The position numbers and the translations under genes are program-made. A stretch of DNA of 42,622 bases from positions 1 through 42,622 of the forward strand of contig CAIYOZ010000194.1 of assembly GCA_903927945.1 (NCBI GenBank), in the 5' to 3' direction. A model generated the notes under the pieces. It was not told where the DNA came from and did no database searches. It was given only the letters and a program-made list of their open reading frames with translations. This document shows positions 1-9,587 of this stretch, in pieces; the stretch's first letter is position 1, and each line of letters begins with the position of its first letter. The stretch comes from an uncultured Bacteroidales bacterium (lineage in GTDB: Bacteria; Bacteroidota; Bacteroidia; Bacteroidales; Paludibacteraceae).

Positions 1-379
1 GTAATCCACCGTCAATCCATACCACTGTCTTTCCTTCTGAAGCAAGGGAGTGGGCTTCCTCGTTGGTTAAACTTTCGGCTTTCCCAAGTTTGACAGATAT
101 CTCCTGAAAACGTTTCAGGTTTTTCAGATTCTTAGGTGAGGTGATAATTGCCATTTTCTGTGACCTGCCTTCAGGCGTTTTCCCGATCTCAACAAGCTTG
201 AGGCGGTCGGATTCTTTTTCCAGTTTTCCCCAATACTCAAGGAGTTGGGTGTAATTAGCCAGGAAATAGTCGTCACCGACTGTGTACTCACCGAACTTAG
301 GTTCCGATATAGTACCTGCGGTAACAAAGTTTAAACTGAAAAACAGTGTAACCAATAAAAGGAAATAGTTTTTTTTCAT
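1..379 (-). CDS. M14-family zinc carboxypeptidase-like protein, N-terminal part (truncated by window edge)
   Basis: Open minus-strand frame from ATG at 377-379 to the window edge, absent from the ORF track because it has no stop: MKKNYFLLLVTLFFSLNFVTAGTISEPKFGEYTVGDDYFLANYTQLLEYWGKLEKESDRLKLVEIGKTPEGRSQKMAIITSPKNLKN...EEAHSLASEGKTVVWIDGGL. Signal peptide and M14-like N-terminus with the 'IDGGL(H)' zinc-ligand region. Confidence 0.8.
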   Translation of the reverse strand, partial: MKKNYFLLLVTLFFSLNFVTAGTISEPKFGEYTVGDDYFLANYTQLLEYWGKLEKESDRLKLVEIGKTPEGRSQKMAIITSPKNLKNLKRFQEISVKLGKAESLTNEEAHSLASEGKTVVWIDGGL

Positions 380-440
380 TTTTTCTTATTTTATATTTTT
401 TATATTCCGACAATCAGGTTAAATGCACGCAAAGTGCATT

Positions 441-1616
441 TTATACCCAAATGTTATCTGCATATTTGTATCCGTTCCCGGTGTTTATCAGTACCACTTT
501 ATCCGTATCGGAAATGATATTCTGAGCCTTTAGTTGCTTTGCCGCGGCCCAAAGGGAAGCACCTTCGGGTGCCGGAAACAGACCCTCGTAGCGTGAAATT
601 TCGCTCAACGCTTCCAGGATATCTTCGTCATTTATTGATATAGCTGTTCCTTTGTAATCATGAAGAATACGTAATACTAATTTATCGGCATAAGGTTTTG
701 GGACACGCAATCCGTTGGCTACAGTAAATCCACGGTCGATAGCATCTACCGTTAAACTGTTGCTATGGAATGCGCTCACCACACCATCACAATTAGTGGA
801 TTGTACGGCTACAATGCGTGGTCTCTTTTTACCGATCCAACCCAATGCTTCCAGTTCTTCAAAAGCTTTCCAGAAACCGATCAATCCGGTTCCACCACCT
901 GTGGGGTAAAGTATTACATCGGGCAATTCCCAGTTAAACTGTTCTGCCAGTTCATAACCCATCGTTTTTTTACCTTCCAGACGGTAAGGTTCTTTCAAGG
1001 TGGATATATTGAAATATCCTTCTTTCTGACATAATTCTGCTACCAGTTTGCCACAATCTCCTATATTCCCGCCAATTTCGATCACCTTGGCTCCATAAAA
1101 CCGGCATTCCTGTTTATGTTGCTCCGGTGTTTCAATGGGCATATATACCACCACTTCGATATCTGCTTTTGCACCGTAAGCTGCAAGTGCAACTCCGGCA
1201 TTTCCGGCTGTGGGGATTGCCACTTTAGTTATTCCCAGCTCCCTGGCTTTCGAAATTGCAGCGCTCATGCCACGTGCTTTGAATGAGCCCGTTGAATTAC
1301 CACCTTCATCTTTGATATACAATTCCGAAAAACCGAATGCTTTTCCCAAACGGTCAGCTTTCAACAACGGCGTTCCGCCTTCACCCAGGGTGACAATATT
1401 GGCTGGGTTTAAAACCGGTAAAAATTCCCCATAGCGCCACATCGTGAAAGGACGGTTTTTAATATCCTCCCTGGTGACTGTTGACCCCTTTAAATCATAC
1501 CAGGCCAACAGGGACCCTTGACAAGTGGGATCAGTGCATACATTTTGAAGGATATTACCTTTATACTCTTTATTGCATTCTGCGCAAACTAAGTGGGAAA
1601 ATTTACTTTGTGACAT
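441..1616 (-). CDS. Threonine synthase-like PLP-dependent enzyme with N-terminal Cys-pair (zinc-ribbon-like) segment
   Basis: 391 aa; PLP-lysine motif GNSTGSFKARGM, glycine loop PTGGGTGL, N-terminal CAEC...CTDPTC. Confidence 0.85.
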   Translation of the reverse strand: MSQSKFSHLVCAECNKEYKGNILQNVCTDPTCQGSLLAWYDLKGSTVTREDIKNRPFTMWRYGEFLPVLNPANIVTLGEGGTPLLKADRLGKAFGFSELYIKDEGGNSTGSFKARGMSAAISKARELGITKVAIPTAGNAGVALAAYGAKADIEVVVYMPIETPEQHKQECRFYGAKVIEIGGNIGDCGKLVAELCQKEGYFNISTLKEPYRLEGKKTMGYELAEQFNWELPDVILYPTGGGTGLIGFWKAFEELEALGWIGKKRPRIVAVQSTNCDGVVSAFHSNSLTVDAIDRGFTVANGLRVPKPYADKLVLRILHDYKGTAISINDEDILEALSEISRYEGLFPAPEGASLWAAAKQLKAQNIISDTDKVVLINTGNGYKYADNIWV

Positions 1617-1621
1617 TCTGA

Positions 1622-2566
1622 TTATTTATTTGAAAGTTCTTTGGATTCTTTTGTTCTTGTGGATTTTCTTGGTTCTTTGATTACCTGGCGAATATTAAGA
1701 TCATATTTTTGACCTTTACTCAGGAAGAAAAATGGTCCGTTGGAGGCGGTAAAGTTTTCATTATTCCCATTGACATGTTTTTCACCACTGCCAATGATTG
1801 TTTTATAATCATATACTGCTACGTATGATTTACCGACTACTTCAAAAGTATCACGCTGAACAACAATGCCTGTGGATTCATCTAATCCGATGCCAATCAG
1901 TTTCGGGCTTTCTTTAATGACATTAATCAGGTCGAACTGACGGTTGCGACGAAGGATATGTTGGTCAATAACCGAGTTCTTAAGAAAACCAAGTCCTTGT
2001 GTATGATCGCCAATTGTAATCTGGGCTCCCGAGGTATCCCCTCTCCATAAAAATGAGCCCTGAATGCTGGCACCTGCGGAAGTTCCGGCAATGACCCCAC
2101 CACGATTCAATACTTCCCAGAATGCCTGATGTGTTAATGTATTCAGGTACGAATCGGCAATTCTCCATTGACGGCCACCTTCGAAAAAAACACCTGTAGC
2201 ATTTTTTAATTGGGCAATAAACTTTTCACTATTTGCCTCCTTAAGGTCATTTGTATGAAGCAACGTCACTCTTTTAATGTTCGTTTCCTTCTTGATTAAA
2301 TCAACCGTTCTGGTTTCAACACCTGCTGAATCACCTGCAGCTGTGGTAACAACTACTATATTAGCATTCTGTACTCCACCGGCCAGTTCTGTGAACTTTG
2401 CCCATATATCGGCCGGAATCAATCCTCCTCCAATAATGATAAGCGAACCGTTTTCAGGGCCATGTTTTGTACCCGAAGATTTTATCTGAATGGGAGAAGA
2501 GGCAAAAGCATTCAATGCTATGATTGCCAGTAAGAGTGTTACAATATTTTTTTTCATTTTATTCAA
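1622..2566 (-). CDS. Cyanophycinase-like peptidase (S51 family), secreted
   Basis: 314 aa; signal peptide; IIGGGLIP, FFEGGRQWR, IAGTSAGASIQG (nucleophile Ser motif) and IDQHILRRNRQFDL. Confidence 0.9.
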   Translation of the reverse strand: MNKMKKNIVTLLLAIIALNAFASSPIQIKSSGTKHGPENGSLIIIGGGLIPADIWAKFTELAGGVQNANIVVVTTAAGDSAGVETRTVDLIKKETNIKRVTLLHTNDLKEANSEKFIAQLKNATGVFFEGGRQWRIADSYLNTLTHQAFWEVLNRGGVIAGTSAGASIQGSFLWRGDTSGAQITIGDHTQGLGFLKNSVIDQHILRRNRQFDLINVIKESPKLIGIGLDESTGIVVQRDTFEVVGKSYVAVYDYKTIIGSGEKHVNGNNENFTASNGPFFFLSKGQKYDLNIRQVIKEPRKSTRTKESKELSNK

Positions 2567-2576
2567 TTGTTGAGTG

Positions 2577-4040
2577 TTAATTTTCTTTCCTATAATCTAA
2601 TTCAGGTTTGCCCGGTACAATCGGGGCATATTTAAATCCTTCGCCACGTGCCTTTTCAAATTCTTCTTTAATTGGAATTAACAGTGCAGGATTTGAGAAC
2701 AAATCAATGGCAGTCAATGCAAATACTTTTGCGGCCACAATCGCTCCTTTAGTGCCAATTGAAGTGCCTCCTGCCGCTACATTTTGCCATGAATGACCTG
2801 GAGAGCCCGGAACAAATGTTGATGCTACAAACGAACCCACAGGCACATTCCAACTAACATCCCCCACATCACTTGATCCTGATTGGAGTTTACCAAATTC
2901 ACTCTCCTTATAAGGAGTCACGTTCTTCACTTTTTCTATTTCCTTGGGCGAAGTATTTGTTGATTTGCCTATTTCATTGGCAAATGCCACTTCTTTTTCT
3001 GTCCACTGAACGCCTCCCACTTTTTCGAGATTTTTCTCTATGAGCCTGCTGAACGCTTTATTTGGTAAAACAGGATAAATAGCACCTGCCAGACGTTTTT
3101 TAGTGACTGTTGTTCCGGTGCCTAATGCTGCACCGTCTGCGGCATTGTCCACTCTTCCCAATATATCAAAAAGTTCGGGTATGCTTTTAGCCCTGACATA
3201 GTACGAAACTTCTGCATGAGCAGGTACTACATTCGGGGAAACTCCACCACCGTCGGTGATTACATAGTGAATGCGGGCATCCGAAACAATGTGTTCACGC
3301 AGTTGATTCACCATGTTATCGAATGCTTCCACGCCATCCAACGCTGACCTTCCCTTTTCAGGATTGGCAGCCGCATGTGCAGCTTTCCCGTGAAATTTGT
3401 ACAGGATACTTATGCGTGCGAGGCTGGTTGAAGCATTGACAGCATTCTCCGAAGCGGGGTGCCAGTTCAGCACTGCATCCACATTTTTGAAGAATCCTTC
3501 TTGTGCGAAAAACACTTTACCGCCTCCACCTTCCTCGGCCGGAGTACCAAATACTTTTAGTGTTCCTTTTGCTCCGGTGGTTTCAATCCATTTTTTAATG
3601 GCCACAGCTCCTGCAATCGAGGCAGTTCCCAACAACTGATGACCGCATCCATGTCCGTTTCCGCCCGGCACGAGCACCTTTTCAAAAGGGACCGTATCCT
3701 GTGAAAGTCCGCTTAAGGCGTCAAATTCAGCCAGTATGCCGATAACGGGTAATCCACTGCCATAAGTTGCCACAAAGGCAGTAGGTATTCCTGCAACCCC
3801 TTTTTCAACCGTAAAGCCATTTGCCGTTAAATGGTTTTGTAGGGCCGTGCTGCTGTTTACTTCCAAAAAACCAAGTTCAGGTGCACTCCATATCTGTTTT
3901 TGCAATCTATTATAAGTGTCGAATGATTTATTTAAATAATCAATGGCGATACTTTCTTTGCTCGACTTACTCTGTTTTTTCTCAGCACCGGCACTGATTA
4001 CTCCGGCACATATAATTAGCAATACTATATATTTTCTCAT
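2577..4040 (-). CDS. M20-family amidohydrolase (AbgB / p-aminobenzoyl-glutamate hydrolase-like), secreted
   Basis: 487 aa; signal peptide; ILAEFDALSGLSQ, GGNGHGCGHQLLGTA, GTPAEEGGGGK, VLNWHPA, SSDVGDVSWNVP metal-binding/amidohydrolase motifs. Confidence 0.9.
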   Translation of the reverse strand: MRKYIVLLIICAGVISAGAEKKQSKSSKESIAIDYLNKSFDTYNRLQKQIWSAPELGFLEVNSSTALQNHLTANGFTVEKGVAGIPTAFVATYGSGLPVIGILAEFDALSGLSQDTVPFEKVLVPGGNGHGCGHQLLGTASIAGAVAIKKWIETTGAKGTLKVFGTPAEEGGGGKVFFAQEGFFKNVDAVLNWHPASENAVNASTSLARISILYKFHGKAAHAAANPEKGRSALDGVEAFDNMVNQLREHIVSDARIHYVITDGGGVSPNVVPAHAEVSYYVRAKSIPELFDILGRVDNAADGAALGTGTTVTKKRLAGAIYPVLPNKAFSRLIEKNLEKVGGVQWTEKEVAFANEIGKSTNTSPKEIEKVKNVTPYKESEFGKLQSGSSDVGDVSWNVPVGSFVASTFVPGSPGHSWQNVAAGGTSIGTKGAIVAAKVFALTAIDLFSNPALLIPIKEEFEKARGEGFKYAPIVPGKPELDYRKEN

Positions 4041-4101
4041 TTTTTTATGGATTTCAGGAAGAGCAAGTTAGTTTAGTTGCTCTTCCTATGGTGTGATTAA
4101 A

Positions 4102-5457
4102 TTATTTATAAGCCACGTTTTGTTCCAGATCAGGATCGGCAACAATAGCGGAATACGGAATTGGGAATACCCAACGCCCGGGATCAGCAAACAAGGTGTT
4201 TAAAGCTCCAAATACTGTTGCTGCTCTACCTGTACGTACAATATCACTAAACCGGTGTCCTTCGAATGCTAATTCGTATCGACGCTCGTTTTCAATAGCT
4301 AATAAAACATCATTTGCTGTCGTAGTTCCTGAAGCAACGAAAGATGCAACATCCGACCGTGTTCTGATTGTATTTAAATCTATTATGGCATTTGTCAAAT
4401 CAGGAGTTGCTTTTTTTACCCTTGCCTCGGCTCTGATTAAATACTGTTCGGATAACCGAAGAACATACAGTGAACTTGAACCATCCTGATTGGCATACTC
4501 TGTTGGTTCATATGCTCCTGTTGATAGCAGTTTAATAAGGCTTTTTCGAGCCCCACCTTTCGTAGGATCCAATAGTTGAGCAGCAAATCCCGGCTCTACA
4601 ATGTAGTCAAGCCTACCTCCTTCACTCGCCGATAAAAGATAGGTATAAATCGGGTTTTTGTCCGAAGTACTAAATGACAACTCAAAAATTGATTCAGTCG
4701 ATTTGAGTGTTGTATAGAATGTTGAGTAAGGTTTTACTAATTTAAACCCGGTAGAATTAGCGATTACCTTGGTTGCATATTCCTCTGCTTTATCCCAGTT
4801 TCCCGTGTATAAATAAAGTCGGGCTTTAAGTGCGTAAACTGAAAACCGGTTAGCACGATTTCTTACAATTGTTTCACTCAGTAACGTATCGGCAGCATTT
4901 AAATCAGCCAGTACCTGAATATACGTGTCCGCTAATGTGGCTCTCTTTATTCCGTTATCCTGAGTCGGAGACAAAGTAGGATTCGTAATCAGCGGTACTC
5001 CACCATAGGTTCTTCCTAAATCGAAATAGGTTAATGCCCGTAAAAAATAGGCTTCTCCCAGATATTGTTTTTTCGAGGCGGGTTTTATCACAATACTATT
5101 TAAAGCAGCTGTTTTACTGATGACGAAGTTTGCCCGATTGATGGCAGAAAATGCAGATGAATACCCGGCTCCACTTGTCGGGTCGAACGCACCCGAACCT
5201 GAAGCGGTGAGAGTGGGTATGATATTTCCCGGAGCTGTACTGCTCACCACATTATCTGCAATTACATTATGTGCAAGTTGATCTACACCAAAATATCCTT
5301 GTACACCATCATACACTCCTATCAAGGCAGCCAGCGATGATTTTTCATCAATAATAACCGAGGCATCCGAGATGGTTGTTTGGGGAACAGTGTCAAGTAT
5401 CCCGTTGCAAGATACGCTTGCAAAAGCTATGGATGCTATGAATATATATTTCTTCAT
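4102..5457 (-). CDS. SusD/RagB family nutrient-binding outer-membrane lipoprotein
   Basis: 451 aa; lipobox ASVSCNG; TPR-like SusD pattern, YFLRALTYFDLGRTYGGVPLIT and C-terminal NERRYELAFEGHRFSDIVRTGRA. Confidence 0.95.
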   Translation of the reverse strand: MKKYIFIASIAFASVSCNGILDTVPQTTISDASVIIDEKSSLAALIGVYDGVQGYFGVDQLAHNVIADNVVSSTAPGNIIPTLTASGSGAFDPTSGAGYSSAFSAINRANFVISKTAALNSIVIKPASKKQYLGEAYFLRALTYFDLGRTYGGVPLITNPTLSPTQDNGIKRATLADTYIQVLADLNAADTLLSETIVRNRANRFSVYALKARLYLYTGNWDKAEEYATKVIANSTGFKLVKPYSTFYTTLKSTESIFELSFSTSDKNPIYTYLLSASEGGRLDYIVEPGFAAQLLDPTKGGARKSLIKLLSTGAYEPTEYANQDGSSSLYVLRLSEQYLIRAEARVKKATPDLTNAIIDLNTIRTRSDVASFVASGTTTANDVLLAIENERRYELAFEGHRFSDIVRTGRAATVFGALNTLFADPGRWVFPIPYSAIVADPDLEQNVAYK

Positions 5458-5475
5458 TTCTTTATTTTTTTATTA

Positions 5476-8400
5476 TTATAATGTTATGTTTACACCAATA
5501 GATACTGATTTTGGTTGAGGTGGTGTTCCAAAGTCCATTCCCTGAACTAATGCCCGTGAATCACCGGCACCCACATTTACTTCAGGATCCGGTCCGCTGT
5601 ATTTTGTCAATGTATAAAGATTTGTGGCAGTGACATATAAACGGGTTGCACTGATATGCAAATGAGCAAGAGCGCGTTTCGGGAAATTATAACCAACTGT
5701 GATGTCTCTCAGGCGTAAATAAGAACCATCTTCTATATAACGGCTTGATTGTTGGTCGTAATTAAATCCTCCATCGGCATTGACTGTTGATTTTGGTCGG
5801 GGCAAGACATTGGTATCCCCCGGTTTCTTCCAATAGTTCATGGAGCTTTCCAGGATTGAACGTGTCACACCTCTGGTACCACCCGATTCGAGAAACGAAC
5901 TGGTATAATTATAAATTTTATTTCCATATTTATAATAGATATTGATATCCAGGTCAAATCCTATGTATGAGAAAGTGTTTTTCAAACTACCTTCTACTAT
6001 TGGCCATGCATTTCCTACAATTTGTTTATCTGCAACAGTGATCTTACCGTCTTTATTCACATCCTGGTAAATAGCATCACCGGTTTGTGAATTCACCCCC
6101 AGGTATTTATATACCCACATGGAATAGAGCGGGAATCCCTGTTGAACCTGATAGGTTTGATAACTACTTGTTATAGGAGTATTTAGTTTTTCAACATTAT
6201 TGACATTGTGCGAGATTGAAAAGTTTGTTTTCCATTCAAAATGCTTAGTTTTTATATTCACTGAGTTCAATGCGACTTCTATACCGCGGTTACTTATTTC
6301 ACCAATATTCTTTGTGACGGATGAATACCCTGTTTTTGCAGGAACCGGATCGTCCAAGAGCAAATCACTGGTATATTTGTCATAATAGTTAACATCAAAG
6401 CTTAATCGTTCTTTCAGCAATTCACCTGTAAGTCCAACATTCCATTGACGGGTAGTTTCCCATTTCAAATTAGGGTTACCTAATTGGGAAGGTGATATTC
6501 CGGCAACACCATCATAATTGCTGCCACCACTCCACAGGCCTAAAGATGAAAAGTCATTGATACTTTGATTTCCTGAATAACCTAAACTGGCTTTCAGCTT
6601 GAGGTTTGTTACTACATCCGTTTTGGGGATGAATGACTCATTCGAAATGTTCCAGGCTGTACCCACGGAAGGGAAATAACCCCATTGATTGTTTACTCCA
6701 ATTCGAGAGGAACCATCATAACGGATATTGGCATCGATACTGTAGCGGTTTCTATAGGAAAAGTTACCCCCAGCAAAATATGAAATCAATGCTGAAGAGG
6801 TGCCTGTGCTTGAAGCTGTTTGTACAGCAGCCGAAGCAATTCTCTTAAACTGATTACTTGGAAATACTGTACCGGTCAGACTTTCTTTCTCTATTGTGGT
6901 TGTTTGAGCAGAGTTTCCCAGGAAAAAGGCCAGATCACTTTCTTTAGCCAATGATAAATTGTAATTTAATACCTGTTCTTCGATTAAAGTTTGTTTGGCT
7001 GTTAAGATATCGGTAGCCTGGCCATTGGGTTGTCCATTTATTAAAAATGTATTCCAGTAAGTTTTTTCATGATAACTGTTGTAGTCATTGCTCCAGGATG
7101 ATTTGAAGGATAAACCTTTTACAATATCCCATTTCAGGTAGACATTATTTACACTGCGAAGGCTATAAGCATGGTCATCTGAATTATTAAGGATTGCTTC
7201 CGGATTATCAAATGCGACCGGTTTATTGTAAGTTCCGTCTGCATTGTAAATAGGATAGAAAGTTGGTGTATGGAGGGCAGCCTGAAATAATCCGGCTGGA
7301 CCATCCCCCACTGCAACAACCTGTCTGTCTACTTTCGAAAGGCTGTTACTGGTTCCGATTTTTATCTGTTTAGTAATAGAGTGGTCTAAATTTAATTGGA
7401 ACGAATATCTGTCAAAATTTTCGAGTTTTAAGGTTGCTTGTTGCTTTTGGTACTCACCGCCCAGATAGAAGTTTGTTTTGGCATCACCGCCCGAAACGGA
7501 TAAATTGTATTTCTGAAGTTGTGCTGTCCTGAAAACTTCATCCTGGCGATCATATGTTTTTTGATCTGCCGGATTTCCATAAGCTGCATAACCGGTAATG
7601 ACTTCAGTTGTTGGTCTGAATGGCCTGGTAGCATAGGTCTTGCCATCATTAATCCAGCAATCATTTACAATTTGTGCATGCTCAGGTCCGGTGGTTAGTT
7701 TCCATAAATCGCCTGTTTTTGCAACCCCATATTCAGCCTGAAATTGTACTTTCGTCTTGCCATTTTTAGCTCCCCTTTTGGTTGTAATTAAGATTACACC
7801 ATTGGCACCACGTGATCCGTACATGGCGGTGGCATTAGCATCTTTCAATACGGATACTGATTCAATGTCATCGGTGCTTAAATCGGAAAGAGGATTGGAT
7901 ACCTGTCCTCCAAGACCATGTGATTGAAGACTTTCACTGTTTATAAATACTCCATCCACCACATACAATGGATCGTTACCTGCATTAATGGAGGTAGCCC
8001 CGCGTAAGCGAACCAATACCTGAGTTCCAGGTACTCCCGAACTATTAGAGACTAATAACCCGGGGACTTGTCCTTGAAGTTTTTCTGAAATAGTGGTATA
8101 GTTTGCTTTAGCCAGATCATCAGACGATACAGTTGTAATGGCACTCGCCAATGCATTCTTCTTTGTCTGTTGGTAACCTACCACGACCACTTCGTTCAGT
8201 CTGTTCAGATCCTCCGTCAGGTAGATAGTCACCGGGTCAGCTTCATACACATCAATTTCCTGTGTTTTAAAGCCCACCGTGGAGACGTCTAAAGTGGCGG
8301 GAAGTGATTTTACTTTAAGAACAAAGTTGCCGTTAGTATCGGATGTTGTACCTGTTTTCTGGCCTTTAACCCGGATGGTGGCACCAATGACAGTGAGTTT

Positions 8401-8556
8401 GGAACTCTCCTCAAAGACTTTTCCTTTAAGTTCTATCTGCTGAGCAAAGACAGAGAGTGTGGTGAAAACTGCAAACAGGAACAGGATTCCTGTTTTGCAT
8501 ACGAGAAAGGTAGGAAACGTTTTGCCGTTTCCAAAAATAAATGGTAATTTTGCCAT
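5476..8556 (-). CDS. SusC/RagA family TonB-dependent outer-membrane receptor
   Basis: 1026 aa; carboxypeptidase-regulatory-like N-domain, VVVVGYQQTKKNALASAI TonB box region, plug motif DPLYVVDGV...LSDLSTDDIESVSVLKDANATAMYGSRGANGVILITTK. Confidence 0.97.
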   Translation of the reverse strand: MAKLPFIFGNGKTFPTFLVCKTGILFLFAVFTTLSVFAQQIELKGKVFEESSKLTVIGATIRVKGQKTGTTSDTNGNFVLKVKSLPATLDVSTVGFKTQEIDVYEADPVTIYLTEDLNRLNEVVVVGYQQTKKNALASAITTVSSDDLAKANYTTISEKLQGQVPGLLVSNSSGVPGTQVLVRLRGATSINAGNDPLYVVDGVFINSESLQSHGLGGQVSNPLSDLSTDDIESVSVLKDANATAMYGSRGANGVILITTKRGAKNGKTKVQFQAEYGVAKTGDLWKLTTGPEHAQIVNDCWINDGKTYATRPFRPTTEVITGYAAYGNPADQKTYDRQDEVFRTAQLQKYNLSVSGGDAKTNFYLGGEYQKQQATLKLENFDRYSFQLNLDHSITKQIKIGTSNSLSKVDRQVVAVGDGPAGLFQAALHTPTFYPIYNADGTYNKPVAFDNPEAILNNSDDHAYSLRSVNNVYLKWDIVKGLSFKSSWSNDYNSYHEKTYWNTFLINGQPNGQATDILTAKQTLIEEQVLNYNLSLAKESDLAFFLGNSAQTTTIEKESLTGTVFPSNQFKRIASAAVQTASSTGTSSALISYFAGGNFSYRNRYSIDANIRYDGSSRIGVNNQWGYFPSVGTAWNISNESFIPKTDVVTNLKLKASLGYSGNQSINDFSSLGLWSGGSNYDGVAGISPSQLGNPNLKWETTRQWNVGLTGELLKERLSFDVNYYDKYTSDLLLDDPVPAKTGYSSVTKNIGEISNRGIEVALNSVNIKTKHFEWKTNFSISHNVNNVEKLNTPITSSYQTYQVQQGFPLYSMWVYKYLGVNSQTGDAIYQDVNKDGKITVADKQIVGNAWPIVEGSLKNTFSYIGFDLDINIYYKYGNKIYNYTSSFLESGGTRGVTRSILESSMNYWKKPGDTNVLPRPKSTVNADGGFNYDQQSSRYIEDGSYLRLRDITVGYNFPKRALAHLHISATRLYVTATNLYTLTKYSGPDPEVNVGAGDSRALVQGMDFGTPPQPKSVSIGVNITL

Positions 8557-8573
8557 ACAATTTTTGAATTGTA

Positions 8574-8622
8574 GCGGGCGTTCCCTCCATCAGTTTGCCG
8601 ACGGAGAAGAGGAAACGTTCGC
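8574..8622 (-). other. Intercistronic stem-loop between the SBP gene and susC-like gene
   Basis: GCGGGCGTTCCCTC (8574-8587) is an imperfect inverted match to GAGGAAACGTTCGC (8609-8622). Confidence 0.45.
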
Positions 8623-8652
8623 TTTTGTTTATAAATAATTATTGTTTTTCTT

Positions 8653-9587
8653 TTATTTAGAAGACAGAAACTTTTCTGCCAATTGATTTGTTTGTTCGGC
8701 CAAGTCCTGTTTGTCCAGGTTCAGGAATCCTTCCGCATGATTAAACTTCTGCCCATCCGTCAACACCCATTTCAGGAAATCCGACACCTCTTTGCGGGCA
8801 GTCTGTTGTGAGTAGATAAATCCGATTTTTTCTACCGGAATTGTTTCGACATGATTTTTCTCCAATACCTCAATCACATTGTCCAGGTTACCCGTCAGGA
8901 TTTCTTTTGCCTCTTTTTAAGCTCCAGTGGCAATAAGGCAAGTCCTTGCTTCAGGGATCGGGAATTTACATCGTATAAATAACCCAAATTATTGTAGGTG
9001 ATCCCGATAGAATCTTTTTTGACTGCTGAGAGCAAAAAGATATCATCGCCCAGTACTTTTTTCCCTTTAATATCCGAAGAAGCATGTCCAAAATATTGTG
9101 CCAGGGCGGTAGAAGCGCAAGCATGATTGTCCCGGGAATAAATGGTGGCTGCATATTTTTGTTTCTCTTTTGCACCGGGCTCATCATCATAATTAATCAC
9201 CTCAAAGAAAAGTTTGTCAATATCTTTTCTGTTTAGCCCTTTTCTCGGTGTGGAAGTAAGGATCGGATTATGGGTATTGGTGACCGGAAGTAATGCATAC
9301 CTTCCAGTATAGATAATTTCTTTATTCTCATTCAGCTCCTCTTTTGCCGGTTGATGGGCTATAATGTTTAGGTCTACGCTCCGGGTTGGAGTTGTTTTAT
9401 TTCCCAATTGAATGTTAGCGGTCGGATGGATCTTTTGATACTCCGTAATCCATTTTTCAATTAATGGATAGGTAAATTTTGTTCCGCTGATTACGATAGG
9501 ATCATTTGCAGAAGGATTTCCTGCAGCCAATGCGCTGGAAGAAATAAAGAATGCAAATAGCAGTTGATAAAAATAAGTTGTTTTCAT
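8653..9587 (-). pseudogene. PstS-like periplasmic substrate-binding protein, split into two frames (8895-9587 and 8653-8877) by an apparent -1 shift in an A5 run
   Basis: The 5' ORF (signal peptide, ISGTKFTYPLIEKWITEYQKIHP...) ends ...LLPLELKKRQKKS*. The other frame continues in register as ...KEAKEILTGNLDNVIEVLEKNHVETIPVEKIGFIYSQQTARKEVSDFLKWVLTDGQKF... up to the 8653 stop. The join is at AAAAA (8914-8918, minus strand). Confidence 0.7.

Follow-up and report, generated by a model that had tools for sequence, protein, structure and literature searches.

What is a SusC/SusD outer-membrane uptake system for when the genes that follow it encode amide and peptide hydrolases? The usual reading of SusCD systems is that they import glycans, and the question is raised by an operon at one end of contig CAIYOZ010000194.1 of an uncultured Bacteroidales bacterium of the Paludibacteraceae (GCA_903927945.1). 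The 42,622 nucleotides analysed here ("the window") are the entire contig C194 of a 450-contig, 4.47-Mb draft genome; C67 is another contig of this genome, and compared genomes and loci carry G and L labels. The minus strand encodes, in order, a PstS-like periplasmic protein (SBP), SusC, SusD, an M20 amidohydrolase, an S51 hydrolase, a threonine-synthase-like pyridoxal-phosphate (PLP) enzyme (ThrS) and an M14 carboxypeptidase (Table 1). Gene order, strand and coordinates agree with a preliminary description of this DNA, with the SBP and M14 boundaries corrected, as do the short gaps from SusC onward (18 bp to SusD, then 61 to M20, 10 to S51, 5 to ThrS and 61 to M14). That description had also denied that the locus is a polysaccharide utilization locus (PUL), and indeed SusCD is present and no glycoside hydrolase family was matched among the window proteins scanned. 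We consider it likely that the operon belongs to a sulfur-assimilation regulon and scavenges organic sulfur by the mechanism proposed below; its genes probably make up a conserved set for drawing sulfur out of peptide-like organic molecules, not for feeding on sugars.

The promoter carries much of this argument. The SBP gene and the cysE-like serine O-acetyltransferase gene upstream of it are preceded by identical, exact copies of a tandem dyad, ATACC-N8-GGTAT-N4-ATGCC-N8-GGTAT. Searching the whole genome with the pattern ATACC-N8-GGTAT-N4-ATRCC-N8-GGTAT (up to 3 mismatches) returned six sites, every one in the island formed by C67 and C194, and none with the reversed pattern used as control. 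These six sites precede the cysE-like gene, SBP, a porin/PstS unit, CysJ, a serine-hydrolase/siroheme unit and ThiF. Among 60 relatives, 16 genomes including this one were positive with at most one mismatch (control hits, 0). At 43 sites a Bacteroidota -7 element resembling (T/G)ANNTTTG begins exactly 22 nt past the operator, a distance which, within one nucleotide, a comparable match reaches at fewer than 3% of random places. The first downstream gene at 21 of the 43 oriented sites encodes CysD, CysJ, CysK, PstS or its porin, ThiF or CysE, the others opening on an SBP (4), SusC (3), a LuxR-type regulator (3), a serine hydrolase (4) or another gene (8), while control regions yielded one CysK-like hit among 185 open reading frames. 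The operator also heads other SBP-SusCD operons in relatives. Patterns with N7 spacing were discarded, having given chance-like sites only, and N8 is the correct spacing. By operator and -7 element, membership of the operon in the sulfate-assimilation regulon of the genus is strongly supported.

Each dyad, TACC-N8-GGTA, has the 7-2-7 geometry of NarL-type regulators. Genes for LuxR-type response regulators adjoin operators in G015, G005 and G032, and adjoin cysK at L137:7832-8482 and 9822-10454, L139:3148-3783, L140:10934-11584 and L142:9683-11027. The regulator that in these last four genomes neighbours cysK and the operator of cysK is a candidate sulfur regulator. When single dyads were searched for across the order, 80 of 295 genomes were positive and the reversed control hit in four. 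These sites fall into two classes, one of sulfur genes and one before feoAB and hemerythrin/LuxR genes, and single dyads alone were therefore not accepted as proof of sulfur control.

The surroundings of the operon point the same way. The last 25 bases of C67 are the first 25 of the window, a 25-mer unique in the genome, and the junction makes M14 one open gene of 938 aa, matching the size of its orthologues (943, 949 and 940 aa in L023, L026 and L027). Past M14, on the same strand, C67 encodes an SDF symporter, a porin-like protein (by eye), PstS and PstC, followed by PstA-like and ATPase genes (both by eye), then CysD, CysN, CysH, a sulfite/nitrite-reductase-TusA fusion, CysJ and CysI, and then siroheme and heme genes and ThiF. 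Joining C67 and C194 thus gives a single sulfur island of ~40 kb, in which the operon directly precedes the sulfate-assimilation genes. Because the Pst-like transporter is set among cysDNHJI and siroheme genes, its simplest reading is as a sulfate transporter.

Conserved synteny and co-occurrence with sulfur genes had been named beforehand as checks on the link to cysteine and sulfur suggested in the preliminary description. We compared 28 loci with S51 relatives, to which the operator scan added ten. The SusCD-S51 order is conserved across loci: SusC-SusD-S51 forms the common core, around which SBP, ThrS, M14, a second M14 (M14L), M20 and tandem S51 genes vary. The proximal dyad with a -7 element at the right distance gave 12 hits in the S51 loci, against 0-4 at 13 other spacings. 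Half of these precede the S51 operons of L009, L022, L023, L026, L027 and L033, and the rest lie at a SusCD-M14-ThrS unit in L026, cysK in L010, sulfite reductase in L027, the two window promoters and, within a gene, in L015. S51 loci do have sulfur-gene neighbours, among them cysK, sulfite reductase, MetN/MetQ and MetY; specifically, two CysK genes (L010), siroheme-type genes (L026) and a PstC homologue with a sulfatase (L023) lie close by, and the operator-free loci of Dyadobacter, Pseudarcicella and the like adjoin either MetN, MetQ and a sulfite-oxidase-like molybdenum enzyme, or MetY. Members of the SDF symporter family also turn up in L010, L023, L030 and L032. The suggested sulfur link is thus strongly supported by shared operator and synteny, and the objection that the hydrolases might be separately controlled fails at the level of sequence, no separate operator being found in front of the hydrolase genes of the operon.

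The cargo of the SBP-SusCD slot differs between sister species. In G023 it consists of OsmC, M20 and an M14-like gene (by eye); G007 has OsmC together with S9, and G005 an arylsulfatase together with an M28-like protein (by eye). S51 itself was not found in 59 sampled relatives (E<=1e-40). Given this absence and the varied cargo, the locus has the look of a sulfur-source cassette that can be exchanged.

What the sequence shows is the anatomy of the operon, the geometry of its operator and promoter, an operator in common with cysDNHJI and cysE, and conserved synteny with sulfur genes; that starvation activates the operon, what it transports, what its enzymes do and the class of its substrate we infer. 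Low usable sulfur (cysteine or sulfide) would be the trigger, upon which a NarL/LuxR-type activator would bind the tandem operator by the promoter, next to the -33 region, and turn the operon on jointly with sulfate uptake and reduction. A small sulfur-containing compound with an amide linkage would pass the outer membrane through SusC/SusD; in the periplasm the secreted hydrolases (M20, S51 and M14) would cut it to amino acids, and the symporter encoded just downstream on C67 would take these in. The sulfur would then enter cysteine metabolism, perhaps via the threonine-synthase-like PLP enzyme. Our first guess at the substrate is peptide-, isopeptide- or amide-bound cysteine (glutathione-like). 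As a matter of judgement, we would rank cysteine peptides or isopeptides before other N-acyl or amide conjugates, followed by mixed peptides and lastly cyanophycin. A gamma-glutamyltranspeptidase gene that follows the GNAT genes of G015, at about the operon's place in the window, is a weak hint of gamma-glutamyl thiols.

The nearest solved relatives of M20 are HmrA and Xaa-Arg dipeptidase, and M14 retains an HxxE-type zinc motif (by eye). ThrS falls within the threonine-synthase family (PRK08197, 526.7 bits against a cut-off of 303) and its solved relatives are threonine synthases; in two settings it is adjoined by sulfur genes. In the S51 hydrolase the serine-hydrolase triad is kept, with Ser163 and His203 invariant and Glu230 nearly so.

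Several observations weigh against a sulfur-scavenging operon. No enzyme of the operon is sulfur-specific by family, and no orthologue of the G015/G005-type regulator was found in the operon's own genome, where the two 36% homologues adjoin an MnmA-like gene (by eye). The operator was not found in loci of the Dyadobacter, Pontibacter and Sphingobacterium type, nor in Pseudarcicella. Across the phylum, the S51 homologues of other families (about 46-55% identity) stand for the most part outside a sulfur context, and homologues of 46-51% identity have neither SusCD nor sulfur genes as neighbours; the S51 family was accordingly dropped as a sulfur marker, only its SusCD-linked clade serving as one. 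Finally, in other genomes a lone dyad with this geometry (ATACCTAnnnnTAGGTATTG, equally distant from its -7 element) stands before FeoAB-like genes and hemerythrin-like/LuxR pairs, which probably form a second regulon under a related regulator.

How narrow the substrate is divides two further readings of the locus. We tentatively entertain a conserved Bacteroidota system that serves a single amide-linked organosulfur compound, its S51 enzyme having acquired a new specificity on the cyanophycinase fold, with a ThrS paralogue recruited to sulfur assimilation and an undescribed NarL-type sulfur regulator binding the tandem dyad. It is also possible, if somewhat doubtful, that the operon scavenges mixed peptides in the general manner of RagAB, sulfur control reflecting merely their value as a source of cysteine and methionine. 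SusC indeed resembles RagA (6sli) along with other SusC homologues (8aa4, 5t3r) among its nearest solved relatives, the cargo consists of peptidases, and other peptidases (S9, M14, M20) occupy sister operons. However, the unusual invariant signature of the S51 clade suggests a narrow substrate, and the same operons repeatedly contain ThrS and tandem S51 genes.

That the operator serves SBP alone, the SusCD-hydrolase block being an unrelated cassette transcribed by chance read-through, we regard as very unlikely. The absence of S51 from the sampled relatives implies that the cassette is recent here, and SBP is a separate conserved element with varying SusCD partners. Yet the operator stands directly before SusC, without SBP, in L009, L026 and L033, the gaps within the window operon are short, and in G493 cysK is flanked by ThrS (69% identical) and SusC-SusD-M14L-SDF, with encapsulin and cysteine desulfurase and without S51.

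Use of cyanophycin, in which a secreted S51 cyanophycinase would free beta-Asp-Arg and M20 would split the dipeptide for a gain of nitrogen and arginine, appears highly improbable. The S51 protein scores just over the TIGR02069 cut-off (133.4 against 126.6 bits) and shares the cyanophycinase fold (TM-score by target length 0.81 to 7uqv, the closest, and 0.77 to 3en0), the M20 protein is related to Xaa-Arg dipeptidase, and according to PMC10206079 the Bacteroidota isoaspartyl dipeptidase has yet to be discovered. However, 7uqv was deposited as pseudo-CphB, and the SusCD-linked clade departs from the CphB pocket, with Asp at the position of CphB Arg183 and GGRQ for GGDQ; because of these changed residues the S51 substrate is probably not cyanophycin. 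Moreover, the promoter is that of a sulfur regulon, and IaaA had no family match in this genome or those of L009, L022, L023 and L027, IadA not having been searched for. Least credible is a phosphate-linked uptake locus, since its Pst-family proteins (SBP and the C67 transporter) belong to a setting in which Pst-like genes adjoin cysDNH and share an operator with cysJ, cysK and cysE, and in G460 PstS/PstC homologues are interleaved with cysDNH and siroheme genes; as far as sequence can tell, the objection that only phosphate might be involved is also answered by the regulon's Pst-like genes sitting with cysDNHJI.

Table 1. Features of the operon and its upstream neighbours in the window, with loci of the single-dyad class
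Feature	Position	Strand	Remarks
M14 carboxypeptidase, N-terminus, secreted	2-379	-	PF00246; rest on C67:26325-28787
Threonine-synthase-like PLP enzyme (ThrS)	441-1616	-	PRK08197; no signal peptide by eye
Secreted S51 hydrolase, cyanophycinase fold, altered pocket	1622-2566	-	PF03575, TIGR02069; N-terminal signal by eye
Secreted M20 amidohydrolase	2577-4040	-	PF01546/PF07687, TIGR01891; N-terminal signal by eye
SusD-like surface lipoprotein	4102-5457	-	PF07980, PF14322
SusC/RagA TonB-dependent outer-membrane transporter	5476-8556	-	TIGR04056, 810.9 bits
PstS-like periplasmic protein (SBP)	8653-9587	-	Frameshifted near 8895-8945
-7 element of the operon, TACTTTTG	9988-9995	-	22 nt past operator
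Tandem-dyad operator of the operon	10018-10057	-	Exact match
GNAT acetyltransferase	10120-10629	-	Between cysE-like gene and operon
cysE-like serine O-acetyltransferase	10726-11670	-	TIGR01172 165.9 bits, EpsC-type 144 bits; operator upstream
Tandem-dyad operator of the cysE-like gene	11809-11848	-	-7 element GAACTTTG at 11779-11786
Single dyad before FeoAB-like or hemerythrin-like/LuxR genes	L112, L120, L123-L127, L131; L114, L115

Two gene calls in Table 1 call for comment. The SBP reading frame (8895-9587) is broken in an A-rich stretch, and a second frame reaching 8653 supplies the C-terminus of the 310-aa orthologues; the gene is unbroken in sister species (309-310 aa), and the frameshift may be a draft error or a real mutation. 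Allowing for it, the gap to SusC is ~97 bp instead of the 338 first read. SBP is weakly PstS-like by sequence (E 5e-4), and PstS structures are the best matches of its poor, low-confidence model (pLDDT 60). The cysE-like protein scores below the TIGR01172 cut-off of 210.65 bits. GNAT genes ~75% identical to that of the window adjoin the sulfur clusters of G015 and G007. An Rfam scan found no riboswitch at the operon; elsewhere in the window it placed a DUF805 RNA motif (RF03081; 37934-37999, minus strand).

Other genes accompany these clusters. A Family 2B encapsulin and a cysteine-desulfurase cargo gene lie within sulfur clusters (L061:14555-17663, L072:4806-8025, L136:3860-7211), between cysE and SBP in G015 and G023 and next to cysK in G493. 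Genes for ThiF-like E1 and JAB protease are grouped with cysK/cysE and sulfate genes (L061:11216-13423, L144:10627-11841), an arrangement reminiscent of a sulfur-carrier-protein route to cysteine. In several loci SusCD or SusCD-S51 is followed by a pair of large membrane proteins (L024:10987-14097, L029:10870-14034, L016:15390-18543, L083:10382-13618); they look DoxX-like by eye, and the two tested had no Pfam match. S51 occurs with the SDF symporter or ThrS in metagenome-assembled genomes labelled Planctomycetaceae (L030, L032, L035), through either inter-phylum transfer or misbinning. On contig C163 of G000 (L058:1375-3982), a cysteate-synthase-like gene neighbours what by eye is an acyltransferase of KBL/serine-palmitoyltransferase type, and sulfonolipid synthesis may be their task.

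Taken together, the operon studied here and its sister operons are signs that certain SusCD systems belong to the sulfur regulon, and the fixed distance between operator and promoter offers a concrete means of picking these out. The operator signature outlines a cysteine/sulfate regulon in the genus and related families and singles out a candidate regulator. Peptide importers of the SusCD type, cyanophycin loci and sulfur regulons are individually known; the open-access literature searched held no description of the operator, of a SusCD-hydrolase locus in a sulfur regulon or of the genus regulon, and nothing relevant on SusC and sulfur starvation.

Like RagAB, the oligopeptide importer of Porphyromonas gingivalis, the operon joins SusC/SusD homologues to peptidases and thus to peptides, not glycans; it differs in its three secreted hydrolases, PLP enzyme and sulfur operator, and to our knowledge RagAB is not part of a sulfur regulon. 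Cyanophycin utilization loci, such as those of strain L21-Spi-D4 and Flammeovirga cited in PMC10206079, likewise place a cyanophycinase-fold S51 hydrolase beside transport genes for scavenging from outside, whereas the operon has a changed S51 pocket, a sulfur-type promoter, sulfur neighbours and no IaaA match in its genome. With PULs it shares SusCD and secreted hydrolases within one operon, but it carries amide hydrolases and a sulfur promoter instead of glycoside hydrolases. The sulfur-starvation regulons of CysB in Enterobacteria and CymR in Bacillus join sulfate assimilation to organosulfur scavenging under one operator, and in Bacillus include M20 amidohydrolases. The regulon described here has the same logic of a single operator for both tasks, and differs from them in its TonB-dependent import and in the NarL-like geometry of a tandem dyad at a Bacteroidota promoter.

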